The position numbers and the translations under genes were made by a program. From an uncultured Pseudodesulfovibrio sp. (GTDB taxonomy: Bacteria; Desulfobacterota; Desulfovibrionia; Desulfovibrionales; Desulfovibrionaceae): a stretch of 64,000 nucleotides of DNA. How positions within the stretch are numbered: the stretch's first letter is position 1; each line of letters opens with the position of its first letter. Shown here in pieces: positions 6,094 through 32,623 of the stretch. The DNA lies in contig NZ_OY761823.1 of NCBI RefSeq assembly GCF_963664965.1, positions 1,560,001 through 1,624,000 on the forward strand, in the 5' to 3' direction. The notes below the pieces were generated by a model. It was not told where the DNA came from, did not search any database, and saw only the letters and a list, made by a program, of their open reading frames with translations.

Positions 6094-6420
6094 ATGCCCA
6101 TCTATGAGTATCAATGTCAGGAATGCCAGACCGTTTTCGAAGACTGGCAGTCCGGGTTTGAGGATCGTGAAATGGAATGCCCCGAATGCGGCGGCAAATC
6201 CAAGCGACTCATTTCTCATTCGTCCTTTCACCTGAAAGGCGGCGGCTGGTATGCCGATGGGTACGGCGGAAAGAAATCCGGCAGCGCTCCGGGTGAGGCT
6301 GCATCGCCCGCCAAGCCAGAAAGCGTCTGTCCCGCAAAAGCGGAATCAGGCAGTACGGAAGCGGCTCCTGCCGCGAAGTCAGGATCTTCGGACTCAGCGT
6401 CCGCAGGTTCCGCATCCTAA
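6094..6420 (+). CDS. FmdB-type zinc ribbon protein
   Basis: A 108-residue protein that starts MPIYEYQCQECQTVFEDWQ and carries two CxxC knuckles (C8/C11 and C29/C32), the signature of the FmdB/CxxC_CxxC_SSSS family of putative regulators. The N-terminal 60 residues form the zinc ribbon. The C-terminal 45 residues are low-complexity Ala/Ser/Pro/Lys, as is common in this family. Its target is unknown. It is followed directly by a terminator and then purB. Confidence 0.88.
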   Translation: MPIYEYQCQECQTVFEDWQSGFEDREMECPECGGKSKRLISHSSFHLKGGGWYADGYGGKKSGSAPGEAASPAKPESVCPAKAESGSTEAAPAAKSGSSDSASAGSAS

Positions 6421-6434
6421 GTGAAGCGGAAAAA

Positions 6435-6457
6435 GGCAGCCACGGCTGCCTTTTTTT
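6435..6457 (+). terminator. Rho-independent terminator after the FmdB gene
   Basis: The stem GGCAGCC/GGCTGCC is followed by seven T. It sits between the FmdB gene stop and the purB ribosome site, separating the two units. Confidence 0.85.
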
Positions 6458-6501
6458 ATGGTAGTGATTCACACATCCAATTCTTTACCGAGAGAGAGAA
6501 C

Positions 6502-7800
6502 ATGCTTGAGAGATATTCCCGACCTGAGATGAGAGAGTTGTGGACCTTGGAAAACAAGTTCCGGGTCTGGCTGGAAGTCGAACTGGCCGTTACCAAGGGC
6601 TGGACTGAAATGGGTGAAGTGCCCCGGGAAGCCTGTGATGAAATCCATGAAAAGGCGGACTTCGAGCTCGACCGCATTCTCGAAATCGAAGAAACCACCA
6701 AACATGATGTCATCGCTTTTCTGACTGCCGTAGAGGAAAAGGTCGGGCCGAATTCCCGATACATCCACCTCGGCTGTACTTCCTCGGACATCGTGGATAC
6801 CGCAAACGGCGTCCTGCTTACTCGTGCCGGAGCCATCGTTGCCGAGGGCATCGACCGCATCCTTGCAGTGCTCAAGGACAAGGCGTTCACCCACAAGGGC
6901 CTGATCTGCATGGGCCGCACGCACGGCATCCATGCCGAGCCCACTACCTATGGACTCAAGTTCGCCGGTTTTTACGCCGAGTTCATGCGCCACAAGGAAC
7001 GTTTTGAAGCTGCCCGCGAGAATATCCGTGTCGGCAAGCTCTCCGGCGCAGTCGGGACGTTTGCACACCTCAGCCCCGAGCTTGAGGAACGTGCTTGCGC
7101 CATCCTTGGCCTCAAGGCTGATCCGCACTCCACCCAGATCGTGCAGCGTGACCGCTATGCCCAGTTCTTCACTTCCCTTGCCATGCTGGCGGGCGGCATC
7201 GAACGTCTCGGTCTGGAGCTTCGCCATCTGCAACGCACCGAAGTGCTGGAAGTGGAAGAAGGCTTCACCAAGGGGCAGAAAGGCTCCTCGGCCATGCCGC
7301 ACAAGAAGAACCCCATTTCCGCTGAAAATCTCTGCGGCCTTGCACGTGTCATCCGCTCCAATTCTCTGGCAGCCATGGAAAATCAGGCTCTCTGGCATGA
7401 GCGCGACATCAGCCACTCCTCTGTGGAACGTGTCATCATGCCCGACACCACCGCGCTGATCGATTACATGCTGCACCGCATGTCCGGTGTGCTTGAACGC
7501 CTCGTGGTCAAGGAAGACAATATTCAGCGGAACCTGATGGGTTCCTTCGGGCTGTTCTACTCACAGCGGATTCTCAACAAGCTGATCGCAACCGGCCTCA
7601 AGAGGCAGGCTGCTTATGAAATGGTACAGAAAGTAGCCATGCGCTGCTGGGAAGGGCGAGTGCAGTTCGAGGACGAAATTCGCAAAGATGAAGAAGTAAA
7701 TAAACATCTTGCGGCTAACGACCTTGACGAAGCCTTCGACCCCTCGTATTACAAACGATATGAAGACGTTGTTTTTGGTCGCGTCTTTGAGGGAAAATAA
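6502..7800 (+). CDS. purB: Adenylosuccinate lyase
   Basis: A 432-residue member of the fumarase/aspartase superfamily. It cleaves SAICAR to AICAR and adenylosuccinate to AMP in purine synthesis. The family signature GSSAMPHKKNP lies at about residues 261-271, with the catalytic histidine region MGRTHG and the TSSDIVDT loop present. The start at 6502 (MLERYSRPEMRELW) is the usual beginning of the family and has an AGAGAGA purine tract before it; the frame upstream runs through the terminator and is not coding. The pyrE start codon follows its TAA without a gap. Confidence 0.97.
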   Translation: MLERYSRPEMRELWTLENKFRVWLEVELAVTKGWTEMGEVPREACDEIHEKADFELDRILEIEETTKHDVIAFLTAVEEKVGPNSRYIHLGCTSSDIVDTANGVLLTRAGAIVAEGIDRILAVLKDKAFTHKGLICMGRTHGIHAEPTTYGLKFAGFYAEFMRHKERFEAARENIRVGKLSGAVGTFAHLSPELEERACAILGLKADPHSTQIVQRDRYAQFFTSLAMLAGGIERLGLELRHLQRTEVLEVEEGFTKGQKGSSAMPHKKNPISAENLCGLARVIRSNSLAAMENQALWHERDISHSSVERVIMPDTTALIDYMLHRMSGVLERLVVKEDNIQRNLMGSFGLFYSQRILNKLIATGLKRQAAYEMVQKVAMRCWEGRVQFEDEIRKDEEVNKHLAANDLDEAFDPSYYKRYEDVVFGRVFEGK

Positions 7801-8361
7801 ATGAACGAATTGAAAATCAAACTTGCCAGACTGCTTCTTGAACTCTCTTACCGCGAAGGGGATTTCACCCTGACCTCGGGCAAGAAGAGTGAGTATTACT
7901 TTGATTGCAAGCAGACTGCCCTGCATGCCGAAGGGAGCTATCTCATCGGTCGCCTGTTTGTCGAAATGCTGAAGGATTTCGACGCCAAAGGCGTGGGCGG
8001 AATGACTCTTGGAGCAGATCCGCTGGTTTCAAGCACAACAGTCGTCTCCCATCTGGAGGGACGGCCCATGCCCGGTTTCATCATCAGGAAGAAATCCAAG
8101 GGGCACGGCACCAACCAGTACCTTGAAGGGCTGGCGAATTTCAGCGAGGGCGACAAGGTCGTGCTGCTGGAAGACGTGTGCACGACCGGTGGAACGCTGA
8201 TTACGGCGGCCGAACGCGTGCGGGACGCAGGCCTCGAAATCGTCGGTGTTTTGGCGGTTCTGGATCGTGAAGAAGGCGGACGGGAGAACCTGAAAAACGC
8301 GGGTCTGGAACTCAGTTCCATTTTCACCCGTCAGGAGCTTCTGGCCGCAGGCAGGAAATAG
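7801..8361 (+). CDS. pyrE: Orotate phosphoribosyltransferase
   Basis: A 186-residue enzyme that transfers phosphoribose from PRPP to orotate, making OMP. The PRPP-binding motif VVLLEDVCTTGGTL is at about residues 118-131, and the substrate loop region KKSKGHGTNQ is present. Its ATG directly follows the purB TAA, so the two are translationally coupled. Pairing of purB with pyrE joins purine and pyrimidine synthesis in one unit. Confidence 0.97.
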   Translation: MNELKIKLARLLLELSYREGDFTLTSGKKSEYYFDCKQTALHAEGSYLIGRLFVEMLKDFDAKGVGGMTLGADPLVSSTTVVSHLEGRPMPGFIIRKKSKGHGTNQYLEGLANFSEGDKVVLLEDVCTTGGTLITAAERVRDAGLEIVGVLAVLDREEGGRENLKNAGLELSSIFTRQELLAAGRK

Positions 8362-8424: not shown

Positions 8425-9684
8425 ATGCGTTTACTTGCCGTTGTTCTGACATTCCTTATTTGCTCTGCCACGGCTTTTGCCGGTGGCTGGGAGCCCATGT
8501 TGTCTTCTCACGCCTATGGTCCCGAGCGGATCGTGGCTGTGGACAAGTCCTCTCAGACGCTCATCATGCTTGAGCGCAAGAGTCCCTTGCACGAAGTCCG
8601 CCGTTTCCCCTGTACCACTGGTCAGTCCGTGGGCGATAAGCTGGTCGAAGGTGACCTGCGTACCCCTGAAGGCGTGTATTTCGTCGGTCCGAAGATCAAG
8701 CGCAAGCTCGACTGGGGGCTTTACGGAAATCTTGCCTATTCACTTAATTATCCCAATCCCATAGACCGTATCAACGGAAAGACCGGCGGCGGTATCTGGA
8801 TTCATGGCCGAGGCAAGGAATTCGTGCCTCGCGACACGCTTGGGTGTGTGGCTCTCAAGGTCCCGGACATGCGTAACGTTGCTCAGGAAATCGCCTTCGG
8901 TACGCCTGTGGTGATAGCCAGCGAGCTTGCGTGGACGCAGGAGCCGGGTGAAAACGATCCCACTGCCAAACTGCTCGCAGAGGAACTCCAAGCATGGGCG
9001 TCGGATTGGGAAAAGCGCGGTGACGCATTCTTTTCCCATTACGATCAAGCGCTCATGAACTTGTCCGAAGGGCGGAGTTTCGACAGTTTTATCCGACACA
9101 AGAAGGGCATATTCGCGGCAAAGCCGTGGATTCATGTCATGGTTGACAATATCCGCGCCATTCCCGGTCCGGATTACTGGGTAACGTGGTTTGACCAGTA
9201 TTATCGCGCTCCCGGCATTGTTTCGAACACGGGTAAGCGTTTCTACTGGAAAAAGGACCCTGAAGGGAATTGGCGGATCGTTGGACGGGAATACGTTCCG
9301 GCCTCAGAAGATCTGGGCAGCAAGTATCTGGCCGCGAAATCGGCAGAAGTGCAGACTGTCATTGAAGCTTGGAAAAACGCATGGCTCGCCATGGACATCG
9401 AGGCCTACGGCCAGTTATATTCCGCCGGTGCGGTGCAGGGAAATCGCAGGGGCGCAAGGCACATAGCTGATTACAAAAAGACGTTGTGGGCAAAGACGGC
9501 TCCTGTTAAGGTCACCATTGACGATCTGAAGGTTTCGTCTCACCCGAGAGGGCTTCAGGTCGCATTCTTGCAAACGTTTGAGGATGCAGGCGGTTATTCC
9601 GATATCGGCCTGAAGACAATGATCCTGACCCCCGACGGCGGTTCATGGAAGATCGAAAGCGAGCAGTGGAGACGGGGTAGATGA
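8425..9684 (+). CDS. Secreted L,D-transpeptidase / L,D-carboxypeptidase, Csd6 type, with two NTF2-like domains
   Basis: A signal peptide (MRLLAVVLTFLICSATAFAG) leads into an ErfK/YbiS catalytic domain with the motif IHGRG ... TLGCVALK. H127 and the nucleophile C141 are present. Residues about 170-285 and about 300-419 each look like an NTF2/SnoaL-type domain (two rounds of EAW...W ... WRI or WKI). Helicobacter Csd6 has a single such domain behind the catalytic one, so the second is an addition. Csd6-type enzymes trim peptidoglycan tetrapeptides to tripeptides. The ATG at 8425 (AAGGA four bases before) is preferred over TTG codons at 8410 and 8413. The stop overlaps the next start by four bases, and an M14 carboxypeptidase follows one gene later, which supports a role in wall trimming and cell shape. 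Confidence 0.88.
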   Translation: MRLLAVVLTFLICSATAFAGGWEPMLSSHAYGPERIVAVDKSSQTLIMLERKSPLHEVRRFPCTTGQSVGDKLVEGDLRTPEGVYFVGPKIKRKLDWGLYGNLAYSLNYPNPIDRINGKTGGGIWIHGRGKEFVPRDTLGCVALKVPDMRNVAQEIAFGTPVVIASELAWTQEPGENDPTAKLLAEELQAWASDWEKRGDAFFSHYDQALMNLSEGRSFDSFIRHKKGIFAAKPWIHVMVDNIRAIPGPDYWVTWFDQYYRAPGIVSNTGKRFYWKKDPEGNWRIVGREYVPASEDLGSKYLAAKSAEVQTVIEAWKNAWLAMDIEAYGQLYSAGAVQGNRRGARHIADYKKTLWAKTAPVKVTIDDLKVSSHPRGLQVAFLQTFEDAGGYSDIGLKTMILTPDGGSWKIESEQWRRGR

Positions 9685-10385
9685 ACGATTCCAAATACAG
9701 CGTGCTATTCATGCGGGATGACCGGGACGTGACCCGGTATCGCGTGAGTCCGTTCTGGCTCAAGATGTTCATTTTCACGCAGGTGTTTCTCTTCCTGTGT
9801 GCAGCAGGCGGCATCTACATGGGCGTGCGCGGTTTCAAGGTCAACGCTGACCTTCAGTCCGAAAACAAGGGGCTTGAGCAGCGTCTTGTCGACGCAGAAG
9901 TCCGTCTTGAACGCCTTGGCAACATGGAGAAGATTCTCCAATCCTATGATCCCGCAGAACTCCAGTCCCTGCTTTCCTCCGCCACCAGTGAACTGGAAGA
10001 GGAAAAAGAGCAGATCACTGTCGATCTCAACAAGATTTTCACCCGCGTGGATACGCAGCAGGTTGGCGTGGAAAACCTTCAGGCCCGGATTGCCGGACGG
10101 AAGGTCAGTGTCAGTTTCGAACTGAATAATCTACAGGCATCCAAAGCCGTGGTCGGTCAGGCAGCCCTTTCCTTTGTCAAGAAGGGTGGGGAGTCGGTTT
10201 CGGCCAAGACCAACAGGAGCGACCTGAGTTTCCAGATTCAGCGCTTCAAACGTATCCAGACGACATTTCTCCTGCCTGACGGGCTGGAACAGAAAGATCT
10301 GTTCGGCCTGCGCCTTGAGATCAAAGGCAAGGGCGGGGATGTCATTTTTGCTGAAACATATCCATTTTACCACATACTTGCGTAG
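9681..10385 (+). CDS. Membrane-anchored coiled-coil protein in the cell-shape cluster, function unknown
   Basis: A 234-residue protein with a short cytoplasmic N-terminus (about 27 residues), one transmembrane helix at about 28-48, a coiled coil at about 52-120 (rich in Glu, Leu and Gln, e.g. ELEEEKEQITVDL), and a beta-rich C-terminal domain of about 100 residues, presumably periplasmic. It overlaps the Csd6-like gene by four bases and is followed after 36 bases by the Csd4-like gene. Its position between two peptidoglycan-trimming enzymes suggests a scaffold or localisation factor. That is inference; no known shape protein is recognised in the sequence. Confidence 0.8.
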   Translation: MNDSKYSVLFMRDDRDVTRYRVSPFWLKMFIFTQVFLFLCAAGGIYMGVRGFKVNADLQSENKGLEQRLVDAEVRLERLGNMEKILQSYDPAELQSLLSSATSELEEEKEQITVDLNKIFTRVDTQQVGVENLQARIAGRKVSVSFELNNLQASKAVVGQAALSFVKKGGESVSAKTNRSDLSFQIQRFKRIQTTFLLPDGLEQKDLFGLRLEIKGKGGDVIFAETYPFYHILA

Positions 10386-10421
10386 TAGCGGGATGCCGTC
10401 ACGGGCAGTCTGAAGGAGCCG

Positions 10422-12164
10422 ATGGTGTTGAGACGCATTTTTTCCACAACATGTTTGCTCGGTCTGACTCTCATGATGCTTGCGGTATCGCATGCCCGCG
10501 CCGCTACGTGGGAACACTCCTTCTTTTCCGGAACCCAGTATCCGCTGCGCGTCGTCTACATTGAAGGCAGCGCGCCCGGTCCGACCATCATGGTTCAGGG
10601 CGGTATTCAGGGGGACGAGACTTCCGGATTCGTTACGGCACAGCTTTTGTCGCAGGCCAAGGTCAGTCGCGGCAATCTCATAGTCCTTCCGCGGGCCAAC
10701 GTCCCCTCCATCAATCTGTGTAAACGGCAGATCAACGTAGACATGAACCGTCGGTTCGATCAGGACTACAATCGTTTTTATGAAGACCGTGTGGCCCGTG
10801 TCATTCGGTTTCTGCTCGCCCAGAGCGATGCCTTCATTCATCTGCATGAGGGAAGCGGTTTCTATAATCCTACCTACGTGGATAATTTGCGGAATCCCAA
10901 GCGCTATGGGCAGTCCATCATTGTCGACACTCTCGTGTATGACAAAATCGACCTTGCCCACACCGTGAACACGGTACTGAACGAAATCAACAGCCGCATA
11001 GGGTTGAGCGATTATCAGTTCAAGCTCTTCAATACCAAGACGTTTGACAAGGGCACCAATTATCCTGAAATGCGTAAGTCCCTGACGTGCTATGCTCTGG
11101 CCGAACATGGCATTCCCGCCATGGCTGTCGAGGTGAGCAAGGATATCCGTCAGATCGATTGGAAGGTCCGGCAGCAGCTTGCCGCCACTGTCATGCTTTT
11201 GCAGCAGTTCGGCGTGCATGTCGAAACACCTGATTTCAGCGATGCGGACGTTCGGGCGTATGCGCGCAAGGGCGTGCAGATCAGCGTGAACGGGCGTGTC
11301 ATGCACAATAATTCCACCATCAATCTTGTCCCCGGCTCGACTCTGTCGGTCAAATCGCTTGCATCCGGTCCCCGTGAGTTCGCACCGGAACTGGCCCTGT
11401 TCGCTTCGGACCGCCCCGGCGTCAATCTGATGCAGGCGCGGCGTATGGCGCTTGAGCCGTTTTCCGCGCTGGAATTGCGAAGCGACGGCAAACGCGTGGC
11501 CCGTGTCCGTGTGAACTGGTCCGGCAAGATGCCTGCTTCTCCGGGCGATGACAAAGCCGTGTTCGTGTGCTGGCTGAACGGCAACCCCGTGTTTGTGCGG
11601 GACGGCGAAACACTCAGTGCGGTGGAAGGCGATCAGCTCATCCTGGAAGGGATGTGGGGAAGTGATCGGCAGGAAGTGGTGAATCTCAAGGGGTTTGTGG
11701 CCATACCATGGGCCAACAACGGGCAGGACCTCGGGTGGGAGATCATTCTTGATCCCGGTAATTTCATGACCAAGTACAGCATGCCGACCAAGCGTCCTGG
11801 AGTCACCCGCTTCCGCGTGGTGCGGGAAACGCCGGGTGCGCCTGCTGCCAAATTTTACGTTGATATTGAACCGCGCACCGTGCTCGCCCTTCGGTTGGCT
11901 GACAAGCGCGGGCAGTCATTGCTCATTCCGTGGACTTCCGGGGGCAACTACCGGCTTCCTGAAGGGGAATACATGCTGGAAGCGGCATGGAGCAACGGTC
12001 CGGGCAGCAAGCTCATTGCTACAGCCGGAACCCGGCCGCTTGATCTGGGGGAGCATTTTACTGTGAATTATGCCAAACCCGTCGAACTGACCGTAAGACA
12101 GGCGACCACTTTCGCAGGTATTGGGTCCATGACGTTCTCTGCGGGAGGACTGGCCGAGAGATAG
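10422..12164 (+). CDS. Periplasmic M14 zinc carboxypeptidase, Csd4/Pgp1-like
   Basis: A 580-residue secreted protein: signal peptide at residues 1-28 (ending SHARA), an M14 carboxypeptidase domain at about 35-265, then about 300 residues of beta-rich modules. The zinc ligands appear to be Q63 and E66 in GGIQGDE and H142 in IHLHEG, with the catalytic glutamate E237 in MAVEVSK. In most M14 enzymes the first ligand is histidine. A glutamine there is known from Helicobacter pylori Csd4, the D,L-carboxypeptidase that trims peptidoglycan tripeptides to dipeptides and generates helical shape. The start has AAGGAG five bases upstream. With the Csd6-like gene two positions upstream, the cluster can supply both consecutive trimming steps. 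Confidence 0.88.
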
Positions 12165-12189: not shown

Positions 12190-12219
12190 AAGGCGATGGG
12201 GTGCACCTGTCGCCTTTTT
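12190..12219 (+). terminator. Terminator of the cell-shape cluster
   Basis: The stem AAGGCGA/TCGCCTT is followed by five T, 25 bases after the Csd4-like stop codon. Confidence 0.8.
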
Positions 12220-28620: not shown

Positions 28621-30045
28621 TTGTCCGCAATTTTTTCAGTCTCGGAACTCACCCGTTCAGTCAAGAACCTGCTTGAGGCGGAATTCCCGTTCGTATGGGT
28701 TCGCGGGCAGGTCACCAACCTTGCGCGGCCTGCGAGCGGGCACTTGTACTTTACGTTGACAGACGGCGATGCCGCGCTGTCCGTGGTCTGGTTTCGCGGG
28801 GCGCAGGCTTCGGCAAAACCGGTCAGTCAGGGCGGCGAGAAGATCAATCCGCTGACGGGTGAGGTCGAGGAAGAAACGGGCGGCACTGCGCTGACCGGGG
28901 CGGCCCTTGAGGACGGCATGGAAGTGCTGTGCGCCGGACGGCTGAACGTGTTTGAGCCGCGCGGGCAGTACCAGCTTGTGGCCGAACTGGTGCAGGATCA
29001 GGGCGTGGGCGACCTTTCCGTGGCGTTCGAGGCGCTCAAGAAGAAGCTTGCTGAAAAGGGATATTTCGACGAGGACCGCAAGATTTCACTGCCGCGTGAC
29101 CCCGCGCGGGTGGCGGTGATTACCTCGCCATCGGGCGCGGCGATCAGGGATTTTCTGCGAATTGCGAAAACTCGTGGCACCGGGTCGGAGATTCGGATTT
29201 ATCCGTCGCTGGTGCAGGGCGATCAGGCTCCGGAACAGATCGCGGCGGCGCTGGATATGGTGGACGCTGACGACTGGGCAGAGGTTGCGGTGCTCATTCG
29301 CGGCGGCGGGTCGCTTGAGGACTTGTGGGCGTTCAATACCGAGCCCGTGGCGGATGCGATTTACCGGGCGCGGGTTCCGGTGGTGTCCGGCATCGGGCAT
29401 GAACCGGACGTGTCCATCGCCGATTTCGTGGCTGACAAGCGGGTTGCCACGCCGAGTCATGCGGCACAGGAACTGTGGCCCCGGCGCGAGACGCTTTCCC
29501 AAGGGCTGGATGTCGTTGATATGGCCATGCGGCGGGCGTATACGAACTGGCTGCATAGCAAGGGCGCGGCATTCGAGCATTTGAGAAAAGGGCTTGCGTG
29601 GCTGTCTCCGGAGCGCAAGCTGGAGCGGATGACGGATCATTTTTCTTCCCTTGCCGTTCGGCTCGATAACGCTGGGCAGGATCATTTCTCTGATCGGCAT
29701 CGCGATGCACAAGGGTATGCACAACGGCTTGACCGGGTGTTTGGTCCGGGGCGGATGGACAGTGCCGCGCGGGAGGCTGCTTCGCTGGCCGCACGCATGG
29801 AACGGGCCATGACGCGGTGTGTCGAGACTGCGGATAATGAATTTGAACTGGCATCGACGACGTTGCGCTCCCTTGATCCCGAGGCTCCGCTTGAGCGCGG
29901 ATATTCGTTGGTGCGGGTTGAGCGCACAGGCGCGTTCCTTCGTGACCCGAAAGAGGTGACGTCAGGCGATGCTCTTGATATCAGGGTGAAGAACGGCCGG
30001 GTCGCCGCCGTCGTGAAAAGTGATTCCACAGACACTCAGGAGTGA
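28621..30045 (+). CDS. xseA: Exodeoxyribonuclease VII large subunit
   Basis: A 474-residue subunit with an N-terminal OB fold (IFSVSELTRSVKNLLE, then VWVRGQVTNLARPASGHLYF), the catalytic core (VAVITSPSGAAIRDFL, RGGGSLEDLWAFN, SGIGHEPDVSIADFVAD) and a helical C-terminal region. The start is a TTG at 28621: the family's IFSVSELT block lies only three residues in, and GGAGG precedes it at the right distance. The enzyme degrades single-stranded DNA with XseB, whose gene is four loci downstream rather than adjacent. Confidence 0.95.
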   Translation: MSAIFSVSELTRSVKNLLEAEFPFVWVRGQVTNLARPASGHLYFTLTDGDAALSVVWFRGAQASAKPVSQGGEKINPLTGEVEEETGGTALTGAALEDGMEVLCAGRLNVFEPRGQYQLVAELVQDQGVGDLSVAFEALKKKLAEKGYFDEDRKISLPRDPARVAVITSPSGAAIRDFLRIAKTRGTGSEIRIYPSLVQGDQAPEQIAAALDMVDADDWAEVAVLIRGGGSLEDLWAFNTEPVADAIYRARVPVVSGIGHEPDVSIADFVADKRVATPSHAAQELWPRRETLSQGLDVVDMAMRRAYTNWLHSKGAAFEHLRKGLAWLSPERKLERMTDHFSSLAVRLDNAGQDHFSDRHRDAQGYAQRLDRVFGPGRMDSAAREAASLAARMERAMTRCVETADNEFELASTTLRSLDPEAPLERGYSLVRVERTGAFLRDPKEVTSGDALDIRVKNGRVAAVVKSDSTDTQE

Positions 30046-30047
30046 GA

Positions 30048-31040
30048 ATGAAACGGTTTTTGTTGTTGATATTTCTGGTCACGGCCCTGACCTTGCCAAT
30101 GGTTCCGGTCTCGGTCCCGGCGCAGGGATTCGGGCTTGAAGAAGGCGACGACGTCGGGTTTGTCCTGCCCGGTGATGCCGAGGCGGCTGAAGCCGAAGCC
30201 GCAATAAAGCCGTCTTCCGGCACCGCGCTGGTGCTTGCTGCGCCATCCCGCGTTGGCGAAGGACAGCCGTTTCTCGTTCGTCTGACTTCGGACCAGCCGC
30301 TTGATTCCGTGTCCGTTCACTGGCTGGGCAAAGAGGTCATACCGTCCATCTCGGTCTGGAATAACCGGCATGTGGCGCTTGCCATGCTCGGAACCGACGT
30401 GCTCAACGCGAAAATGGGCAAGGATGAGCTGACGGTGATTGCCTCCATCGACGGCAAGGAAAACACATTTCGCCGTACCGTACAGATCACATCGGTGGAT
30501 TATCCGAAGCAGGAACTGACCCTGCCGAAAAAGATGGTGACCCCGCCGACAGAGGTCTATGACCGTATCAAGGCGGATCGTGCCGAGGTTGCCAAGGCGT
30601 TGGCTCTGGTTACGCCACAGCGCAACTGGCACCTGCCTTTCGAACGTCCGGTCACGGGCAAGGTCACCAGCCTGTATGGCCTGAGGCGTATCCTCAACGG
30701 CAAGCCCAAGAACCCGCATCGCGGTCTGGATTTTCGCTCTCCCATGGGCAATCCGGTCAAATGCACGGCCGACGGTACGGTTGTCCTCGTGGGCGATCAT
30801 TACTACGCGGGCAATTCCGTGTACGTGGATCATGGGAACGGCGTGGTCTCGATGTATTTCCATCTGTCCAAGCCCATAGTGAAGGTGGGGGACAAGGTGC
30901 AGCGCGGGCAGGCTGTCGGTCTTTCCGGCATGTCAGGGCGCGCGACCGGGCCGCACCTGCATTTTTCCGTGGCCGTACTCGGCAAGCTCGTTGACCCTGA
31001 GCCACTGTTCAAGAACAGTGCGGATGCGTTGCTGAAATAG
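30048..31040 (+). CDS. Secreted M23 (LytM) peptidase, paralogue 1
   Basis: A 330-residue periplasmic protein: signal peptide at 1-25, a beta-sandwich-like N-terminal domain (about 55-150) and an M23 endopeptidase domain at about 195-320. The zinc and catalytic residues are all present: H224 and D228 in HRGLDF, H303 and H305 in GPHLHF. Such enzymes cut peptidoglycan cross-bridges or act as amidase activators. The ATG at 30048 follows AGGAG by about five bases and lies two bases after the xseA TGA. It is closely similar in layout to the gene at 31727-32623. Confidence 0.9.
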   Translation: MKRFLLLIFLVTALTLPMVPVSVPAQGFGLEEGDDVGFVLPGDAEAAEAEAAIKPSSGTALVLAAPSRVGEGQPFLVRLTSDQPLDSVSVHWLGKEVIPSISVWNNRHVALAMLGTDVLNAKMGKDELTVIASIDGKENTFRRTVQITSVDYPKQELTLPKKMVTPPTEVYDRIKADRAEVAKALALVTPQRNWHLPFERPVTGKVTSLYGLRRILNGKPKNPHRGLDFRSPMGNPVKCTADGTVVLVGDHYYAGNSVYVDHGNGVVSMYFHLSKPIVKVGDKVQRGQAVGLSGMSGRATGPHLHFSVAVLGKLVDPEPLFKNSADALLK

Positions 31041-31630: not shown

Positions 31631-31726
31631 TTTTTATTCGGACATTTTGCCTCCTATTGTTGGCGGTGAGTGGCCCTGCCATTGTTGGCTGGGAATATGT
31701 CCCTTGATTACAAGGAGAAGACCCTT

Positions 31727-32623
31727 TTGTTTCGTTTGATGAAATTTCATGTTGCTCTCCAGTTGCTTTGCCTTTTCCTGCTGTCTTTTCCGGTTGCCGC
31801 GGCTACATCCGAAATGGTGGAAATTGCGACTCCTCATGAGGTTGGAGTCGGAAAGGCCTTTTTTGCCCGCATCACTTCCTGGTATCCGTTGGAAGACCTG
31901 ACTGTTTCGTGGAACGGCAAAACCGTGAAGCCGTCCGTGAAGGAAGACAAGGGGAAATACAGCGCGGATGTCCTGCTCGGAATCGGGCTGCGGCAGGAAA
32001 CCGGCGTGTATCATCTTGGCGTGAGCGCCAGTGTATGGGGGCATGTGCGGCAATTCGGCACGTCCGTCAAAGTGGTCGAGACGGAGTTCCAGAAGGAAAC
32101 ACTGACTGTCGAGCCGAAGATGGTGATTCCTCCCGAAGAAGTGCTGGAACGCATCAAGCAGGAGCGGGCAGTTATTCTTGAGGCCTTGAATATCGTTTCT
32201 CCCCGGCAGCGTTGGGAATTCCCTTTTTCCCGGCCTGTCAAAGGCAAGATGCTGAGCCGATTCGGTCTGTACCGGACCTTCAACGGTCATACCAAGGGAC
32301 GGCATACCGGCCTTGATTTTCGCGCATGGCTGGGCACGCCGATTCATTCCATGGCATCCGGTGCTGTTGTCCTCGTGGGGAACTTCTACTATGGTGGAAA
32401 TTGTGCCTTCATTGACCATGGCAACGGCTTTATCTCCATGTATGCCCACATGTCCAAGGTGTTCGTGAAGCAAGGAGATGAAGTGGCTTCCGGGCAGAAG
32501 GTCGGCCTGTCAGGTGCGACCGGGCGAGTGACTGGAGCGCATCTGCACCTCGCTACGTTCGTACTGGGAAAGGTTGTGGATCCGGAGCCGTTTTTCGATG
32601 GTCAGCTAAGATTGAATGAATAA
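31727..32623 (+). CDS. Secreted M23 (LytM) peptidase, paralogue 2
   Basis: A 298-residue protein with the same plan as 30048-31040: signal peptide, an N-terminal sandwich domain (MVEIATPHEVGVGKAFFARI), then an M23 domain with H193 and D197 in RHTGLDF and H272 and H274 in GAHLHL. The TTG at 31727 is chosen because AAGGAG is about nine bases upstream; the ATG at 31739 has no ribosome site at a usable distance. Similarity across both domains implies a gene duplication. The active site is intact. Confidence 0.88.
   Translation: MFRLMKFHVALQLLCLFLLSFPVAAATSEMVEIATPHEVGVGKAFFARITSWYPLEDLTVSWNGKTVKPSVKEDKGKYSADVLLGIGLRQETGVYHLGVSASVWGHVRQFGTSVKVVETEFQKETLTVEPKMVIPPEEVLERIKQERAVILEALNIVSPRQRWEFPFSRPVKGKMLSRFGLYRTFNGHTKGRHTGLDFRAWLGTPIHSMASGAVVLVGNFYYGGNCAFIDHGNGFISMYAHMSKVFVKQGDEVASGQKVGLSGATGRVTGAHLHLATFVLGKVVDPEPFFDGQLRLNE

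Follow-up and report, generated by a model that had tools for sequence, protein, structure and literature searches.

A predicted single-pass membrane protein encoded between Csd6-type and Csd4-type peptidase genes in Pseudodesulfovibrio is a candidate bactofilin adaptor

What does a membrane protein of no recognised family do between the genes of two peptidoglycan-trimming enzymes? The question is raised by a three-gene cluster (Table 1) in a stretch of 64,000 nucleotides from an uncultured Pseudodesulfovibrio sp. (contig NZ_OY761823.1, positions 1,560,001 to 1,624,000), which was analysed at its full length and is called the window here. Gene 1 is of csd6 type, gene 3 encodes a peptidase of the M99 family, and the middle gene overlaps gene 1. 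A preliminary description, made from the letters alone, had taken the three genes for a curvature module, and the coordinates, overlap and domains that it gave were confirmed. The reading that we favour, and hold to be somewhat better than an even bet, is that of a shape module in which the middle protein is a single-pass transmembrane adaptor that puts wall trimming under the control of bactofilin. Csd6 would convert wall tetrapeptides to tripeptides and M99 would convert tripeptides to dipeptides. The middle protein would dock on bactofilin with a cytoplasmic beta-hairpin common to LmdC-like M23 peptidases, extend a coiled coil into the periplasm, and hold or position Csd6, perhaps also M99, with its beta-sandwich. 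By recruiting Csd6, and perhaps M99, the adaptor would let trimming occur where bactofilin lies.

Gene 1 carries a YkuD domain (PF03734, residues 35-164, E 3.9e-18) and a Cds6_C NTF2 domain (PF24125, residues 184-286, E 4e-25), both above the Pfam cut-offs. A second NTF2-like stretch (residues 308-416) stayed under the Pfam cut-off and aligned with the NTF2 domain of Bd1075 with 31 bits. The N-terminus is hydrophobic and is a probable signal peptide. H127 and C141, proposed earlier as a Csd6-type catalytic pair, were invariant in 25 of 25 aligned homologues. An arginine two positions after the cysteine is reported to be typical of transpeptidases (PMC8938487); this position is A143 in gene 1 and A, S, V or T in all 25 rows. 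The closest solved structures were Bd1075 (7o21), Pgp2 and Csd6, the most similar named Csd6 proteins came from Pseudodesulfovibrio, and gene 1 was the sole YkuD match found in the genome. We assign gene 1 to the Csd6/Pgp2/Bd1075 type, with which it shares the YkuD plus NTF2 architecture, the catalytic histidine and cysteine and the missing arginine, and L,D-carboxypeptidase activity is predicted for it. It differs from these proteins in having two NTF2-like domains, and apparently more are present in some genera. Csd6 proteins of 720-823 amino acids, apparently with extra NTF2-like domains, were seen at five loci (L072, L075, L078, L080, L087), four of them of Solidesulfovibrio.

The last NTF2-like domain of gene 1 ends in a tryptophan that was described as Bdellovibrio-specific. 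This residue, W415, aligns to W303 of Bd1075 (W298 of the structure chain; the numbering is offset by 5, C156 of the paper being C151 of the chain). Counted from the alignment column, a count by regular expression having been judged too loose and left unused, the terminal tryptophan is present in 20 of 25 Csd6 rows and the five rows without it are three of Desulfomicrobium, one of D. retbaense and one of family f5. Bd1075 is reported to be targeted to the convex cell face by its NTF2 domain, W303 included (PMC8938487). Csd6 could in the same way place itself through its NTF2 domains, and the middle protein would then be an activator, a stabiliser or a peptidoglycan tether that makes no contact with bactofilin. 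The aligned tryptophan is in line with such self-placement, which leaves unexplained the M23-like hairpin, the co-occurrence with bactofilin and the gene linkage described below; we regard it as rather unlikely.

Gene 3 matched Peptidase_M99 above the Pfam cut-off (E 5.2e-32), which together with the YkuD and Cds6_C matches bears out the two enzyme families first suggested for the cluster. Q63, E66, H142 and E237 were invariant in 20 of 20 and 23 of 23 aligned rows (alignments A2 and A6, respectively). Q63 aligned to Gln46 of Csd4, the residue that is histidine in PDB entry 4wcm, titled 'Gln46His variant'. The alignment agrees with the earlier view of Q63 as a Csd4-type glutamine acting as the predicted first zinc ligand, and E66 and H142 are predicted metal-site residues. 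In a Foldseek search with the model of gene 3 the five best matches were all Csd4 entries (E 3e-26 to 3e-25), and the whole-chain overlay on Csd4 was poor (template modelling (TM) score 0.43 by query length, root-mean-square deviation 16.5). The alignment for the AlphaFold2 model was thinned to 22 of 31 listed loci, short, broken and repeated copies having already been dropped. We place gene 3 in the M99 (Csd4/Pgp1) family and predict that its product cleaves tripeptides to dipeptides; it resembles Csd4 and Pgp1 in the M99 domain, the glutamine ligand and the best fold matches, and differs from them in a longer beta-rich C-terminal part and in that its gene forms one cluster with those of csd6 and the middle protein. 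Five genera that were read, with no M99 in the cluster, have a shorter M99 paralogue elsewhere (L046-L049, L060), in which LHDG takes the place of LHEG.

For the middle protein, searches of Pfam and NCBIfam returned sub-threshold noise and no family, and 52 homologues searched against Pfam at E 0.01 gave no consistent match, no SH3 family and no M23. It was modelled with AlphaFold2 from 52 sequences (predicted local distance difference test 89.1, predicted TM score 0.56), the alignment being thinned to 51 of 61 listed loci after short, broken and repeated copies had been dropped. The model has two strands (residues 6-10 and 18-22) that form a beta-hairpin (6-22), a long helix (24-88) comprising the predicted membrane span and coiled coil, a poorly resolved stretch (102-111) and a beta-sandwich at about 128-232. 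This architecture, with one long helix following a short N-terminus, matches the single-pass coiled-coil protein recognised in the preliminary description. Foldseek returned generic beta-sandwiches only (TM score by query length 0.24-0.36), a fold match that is uninformative. In layout alone the middle protein is like Csd5 of Helicobacter pylori, a single-pass protein whose short cytoplasmic N-terminus binds the bactofilin CcmA; Csd5 ends in an SH3 domain, whereas the middle protein ends in the predicted beta-sandwich, with no SH3 match. Second homologues of the middle protein occur at L051 and L052 with no csd6 match alongside. In a literature search of open papers, mostly without subscription ones, the middle protein was named nowhere.

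The likeness of its hairpin to the N-termini of M23 peptidases matters because LmdC binds bactofilin through that region. The first 60 residues of the middle protein matched an M23 peptidase conserved in the order (own copy L167:901-1806) with an hhalign probability of 95.7%, and eight bactofilin-adjacent M23 peptidases (three of them near-identical and of one genus, trimmed by 18 residues by eye) with 72.9%; the controls PBP2 and MreC gave 0.5-6.4% over all sets. The hairpin alone gave 91%, and the reversed control 0.03%. A hidden Markov model (HMM) of the middle protein matched one M23 peptidase at E 1.7e-8. When the HMM of the M23 hairpin was run on single open reading frames (ORFs), 70 of 123 middle proteins and 144 of 7109 other ORFs were matched at E<100, and a single middle protein scored better than E=1; some genes are counted more than once among the 123.

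For LmdC a dissociation constant of about 15 uM is reported for the binding of its cytoplasmic region to bactofilin (Pohl et al. 2024, PMC10945521). According to the same paper, substitutions in the beta-hairpin leave LmdC no longer enriched at the inner curve of R. rubrum, and the hairpin is required for the bactofilin-dependent enrichment of LmdC. With the LmdC-BacA systems of Hyphomonas and Rhodospirillum the middle protein shares a cytoplasmic beta-hairpin, a membrane helix and a coiled coil, as predicted by the model; a bactofilin gene lies next to relatives of the middle gene in some other families. It differs from LmdC in having a beta-sandwich in place of the M23 domain, and its gene goes with csd6 and M99. 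A 2025 paper describes the N-termini of Thermodesulfobacteriota bactofilins as unlike those of most phyla and suggests that they may bind non-membrane factors (PMC12448750). The LmdC-like M23 gene of the window's own genome (L167:901-1806) adjoins a FliR-type export gene downstream, not bactofilin.

The distribution of the three genes was determined in 118 genomes of the window's order (50 genera, 6 families), with profile matches accepted at E <= 0.001. The csd6 gene was found in 103 genomes, the middle gene in 84, relatives of M99 in 75 and bactofilin in 100. The csd6 gene and the middle gene were adjacent in 75 of 118, and all three genes in 54 of 118, so that one conserved cluster, as first described, does exist and its arrangement is far above chance. 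The common order was zinc-ribbon gene, purB, pyrE, csd6, middle gene and M99, often without M99; the named and the G loci partly overlap (L066/L033, L132/L032, L123/L044), and such locus tallies are not independent genomes. At one locus of family f5 (L039, genome G078) the middle gene stands alone at purB-pyrE, and a csd6-like gene lies elsewhere, near flagellar-looking genes.

Bactofilin accompanied the middle gene throughout. Both were found in 84 genomes, the middle gene only in 0, bactofilin only in 16 and neither in 18, where absence is judged by profile searches that can miss diverged copies (as at L273, L276 and L278) and several genomes are incomplete. Counted by genera, the corresponding figures were 36, 0, 9 and 5. 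For full-length LmdC-like M23 peptidases, picked by eye among the matches listed, 87 genomes had both the peptidase and bactofilin, 1 the M23 only, 13 bactofilin only and 17 neither. The window's genome has two bactofilins. In a genome of the same genus (G018) one bactofilin gene comes directly after genes matching MreB, MreC, PBP2 and RodA; the window genome's own bactofilin at L147:6496-6783 follows the same mre genes, and the f5 genome G078 has the same order. That bactofilin immediately follows rodA in the elongation operon (L147, L149) hints at a connection with the elongasome.

The preliminary description had further supposed that the middle protein is a localisation or scaffold factor that replaces the Csd5/CcmA system. 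Its first half holds as probable. Replacement of the bactofilin/Csd5 system fits the predicted single-pass, Csd5-like layout with a short N-terminus, but we give it almost no credence. As a substitute for CcmA the middle protein is refuted by the two bactofilins of the genome, by co-occurrence in 84 of 84 genomes and, in profile searches, by 0 of 18 in the bactofilin-negative ones. We reject it because genomes that carry the middle gene keep bactofilin, which in other families adjoins the cluster itself. A role in place of Csd5 alone is possible.

This linkage was seen in the wider phylum, for which 297 genomes were tabled, 286 of them outside the window's family. Among these 286, 60 were scored for csd6 and 47 for M99, two of the latter falling short of the family cut-off; in 37 the two genes lay near each other. 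Bactofilin was found in 57 of the 60 genomes with csd6 as compared to 123 of the 226 others, in 40 of 47 with M99, and in 35 of the 37 with csd6 near M99. Nine genomes with weak or partial csd6 matches had been dropped; with them included, bactofilin accompanied csd6 in 62 of 69. Some of the 61 genomes scored there for the middle gene have short N-terminal matches or M23 peptidases (L262).

Of the 37 genomes in which csd6 lies near M99, the 44 loci that were read cover 34, all but G241, G299 and G323. With the middle gene identified by HMM, the order csd6, middle gene, M99 was found at 25 loci in 12 other families, and at three further loci (L273, L276, L278) the gap holds a membrane protein that escaped the HMM. 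Of the 37 loci whose choice did not depend on bactofilin, 15, in 7 of 16 families, have bactofilin next to the cluster; seven loci chosen for a nearby bactofilin (L279, L282-L286, L292) were kept out of this count. Over all loci it adjoins at 22 of 44, all 22 matches being above the Pfam cut-off; adjacency in the placement list of the wider table is at least as counted. Two genomes of one genus have pyrE, csd6, middle gene, M99, M23 and bactofilin in a row, and a third has the same row without M99. A bactofilin beside csd6-M99 at L282:5560-6255 (-) has a C-terminal CarboxypepD_reg-like domain.

In two families (L267 and L270; L279) the beta-sandwich also occurs as a C-terminal fusion to Csd6, with i-E of 3e-31 to 4e-34, and L267 has a separate middle gene besides the fusion. 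The fusion points to Csd6 as the likely partner of the beta-sandwich. The pairing of csd6 and M99 genes itself is already known: with STRING, pgp1 and pgp2 were reported to lie no more than 300 bp apart in Nitratiruptor, Nautilia, a Desulfococcus and Persephonella, four other bacteria of which one is a deltaproteobacterium (Frirdich et al. 2014, PMC3961634). These are the same two enzyme genes, and the part of that paper cited here mentions neither a middle gene nor a link to bactofilin. In the literature searched no description of the middle gene and its company was found, and none of the papers couples bactofilin with a csd6-M99 cluster.

Several observations weigh against an adaptor that ties trimming to bactofilin. 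The pieces of the cluster can occur apart: in family f3, csd6 and M99 are present without the middle gene in 5 of 11 genomes, which also suits self-placement of Csd6; in f5 the middle gene is apart from csd6, with no M99, in 8 of 8; csd6 stands alone in 10 of 14 genomes of f4 and 1 of 1 of f6; and outside the order no middle gene was found beside csd6 and M99 at L264 and L280-L282. Within the order, bactofilin is not part of the cluster; where its place was read, it follows rodA in the mre operon, and none was found next to the cluster in the window or in the order loci read. Eight of the 15 bactofilin-linked loci belong to one family (f21), with shorter bactofilins, and the co-occurrence counts are not phylogenetically independent, the p-values ignoring kinship. 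The hairpin match to the eight bactofilin-adjacent M23 peptidases was moderate (61-73%), and with four of them it was only 4.7% (34 residues) and 12% (26 residues). The reverse search with the HMM of the middle-protein hairpin was weak, with 8 of 60 M23 peptidases and 126 of 7109 ORFs at E<100 and no M23 below E=1. Double mutants of C. jejuni suggest that Pgp2 and bactofilin act in different pathways (PMC10151779). Finally, curvature of R. rubrum is reported to rise on loss of bactofilin or LmdC (PMC10945521), and because of this the sign of any shape effect is unpredictable.

On cell shape, the comparison of curved with straight relatives proposed at the outset could be made in part. Genus g46 is very probably Desulfomicrobium: the Csd6 on a named Desulfomicrobium contig is 66% identical to that of G105 (g46). 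D. baculatum is described as 'short rods with rounded ends' (PMC3035215). In Desulfomicrobium csd6 was found in 10 of 11 genomes, and in the three that were read its place is again behind purB and pyrE; profile searches found the middle gene, M99 and bactofilin in 0 of 11, and full-length LmdC-like M23 peptidases were seen in 0 of 11 among the matches listed. D. retbaense (G074), described as 'straight to slightly curved rods' (PMC3035252), has csd6 and a bactofilin beside an M23, and profile searches did not find the middle gene or M99. The pattern fits a curvature module weakly, coming from one or two clades, the csd6-only state from Desulfomicrobium. Genera in which no csd6, middle gene or M99 was found include g37 and g45 of f3, g43 of f4, and g6 and g26 of f1. 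Desulfomicrobium offers a natural comparison, with the enzyme kept and the localisation parts not found.

The retention of csd6 in Desulfomicrobium, rods as far as described, could also mean that the cluster is there for general wall turnover or stress and not for shape. Its place behind purB and pyrE-like genes would agree with this, and in the literature search no phenotype was reported for the cluster in the order. However, the homologues Csd4, Csd6, Pgp1, Pgp2 and Bd1075 are reported to be needed for helical or curved shape, and the linkage to bactofilin and M23 speaks against a general turnover role, which we consider improbable.

Coordinates are collected in Table 1. Genes 1 and 2 are likely translationally coupled through their stop/start overlap. 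The zinc-ribbon, purB and pyrE-like genes mark the place where the cluster is usually found in the order and stand outside its function. The terminator-like hairpin comes from a scan in which the number of such sites was not above chance. Gene names such as mreB, rodA and purB were given by eye, one example each being then confirmed by Pfam; in the remaining loci names come from similarity searches or by eye. The window has two more M23 peptidases with hydrophobic N-termini (30042-31040 and 31670-32623, +), judged by eye not to be of LmdC type, with a small membrane-protein ORF between them.

Table 1. Features of the cluster and its surroundings, in window positions.
Feature	Position	Strand	Length	Remark
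Gene 1, csd6-type	8425-9684	+	419 aa from ATG	
Gene 2, middle gene	9681-10385	+	234 aa	putative bactofilin-Csd6 adaptor
Gene 3, M99 (Csd4/Pgp1-type) gene	10422-12164	+	580 aa	
ATGA stop/start overlap, genes 1/2	9681-9684	+		
Zinc-ribbon gene, fmdB-like	6094-6420	+		conserved upstream context
purB	6421-7800	+		conserved upstream context
pyrE-like gene	7801-8361	+		conserved upstream context
Terminator-like hairpin	12190-12216	+		shortly 3' of M99 stop

The way in which an intracellular bactofilin directs wall trimming on the far side of the membrane is an open question, and the putative adaptor addresses it; in the part of their paper cited here, the authors of the Bd1075 study state that the targeting of a protein to a single side wall has no known mechanistic basis. 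In H. pylori, Csd5-MurF-CcmA and Csd7-Csd1-Csd2 have been described as two complexes (PMC9507126; see also PMC9448923). With chances that we put close to even, Desulfobacterota may have made one machine of Csd6/Csd4 trimming and the bactofilin-M23 system, by means of an adaptor family that re-uses the LmdC hairpin on a non-enzymatic, Csd6-binding body. With an LmdC-type docking hairpin at one end and, at the other, a domain that occurs in nature as a fusion to Csd6, the protein family allows the question to be put to a direct test in non-pathogenic sulfate reducers. If true, two systems that are treated as separate in Campylobacter would be joined.

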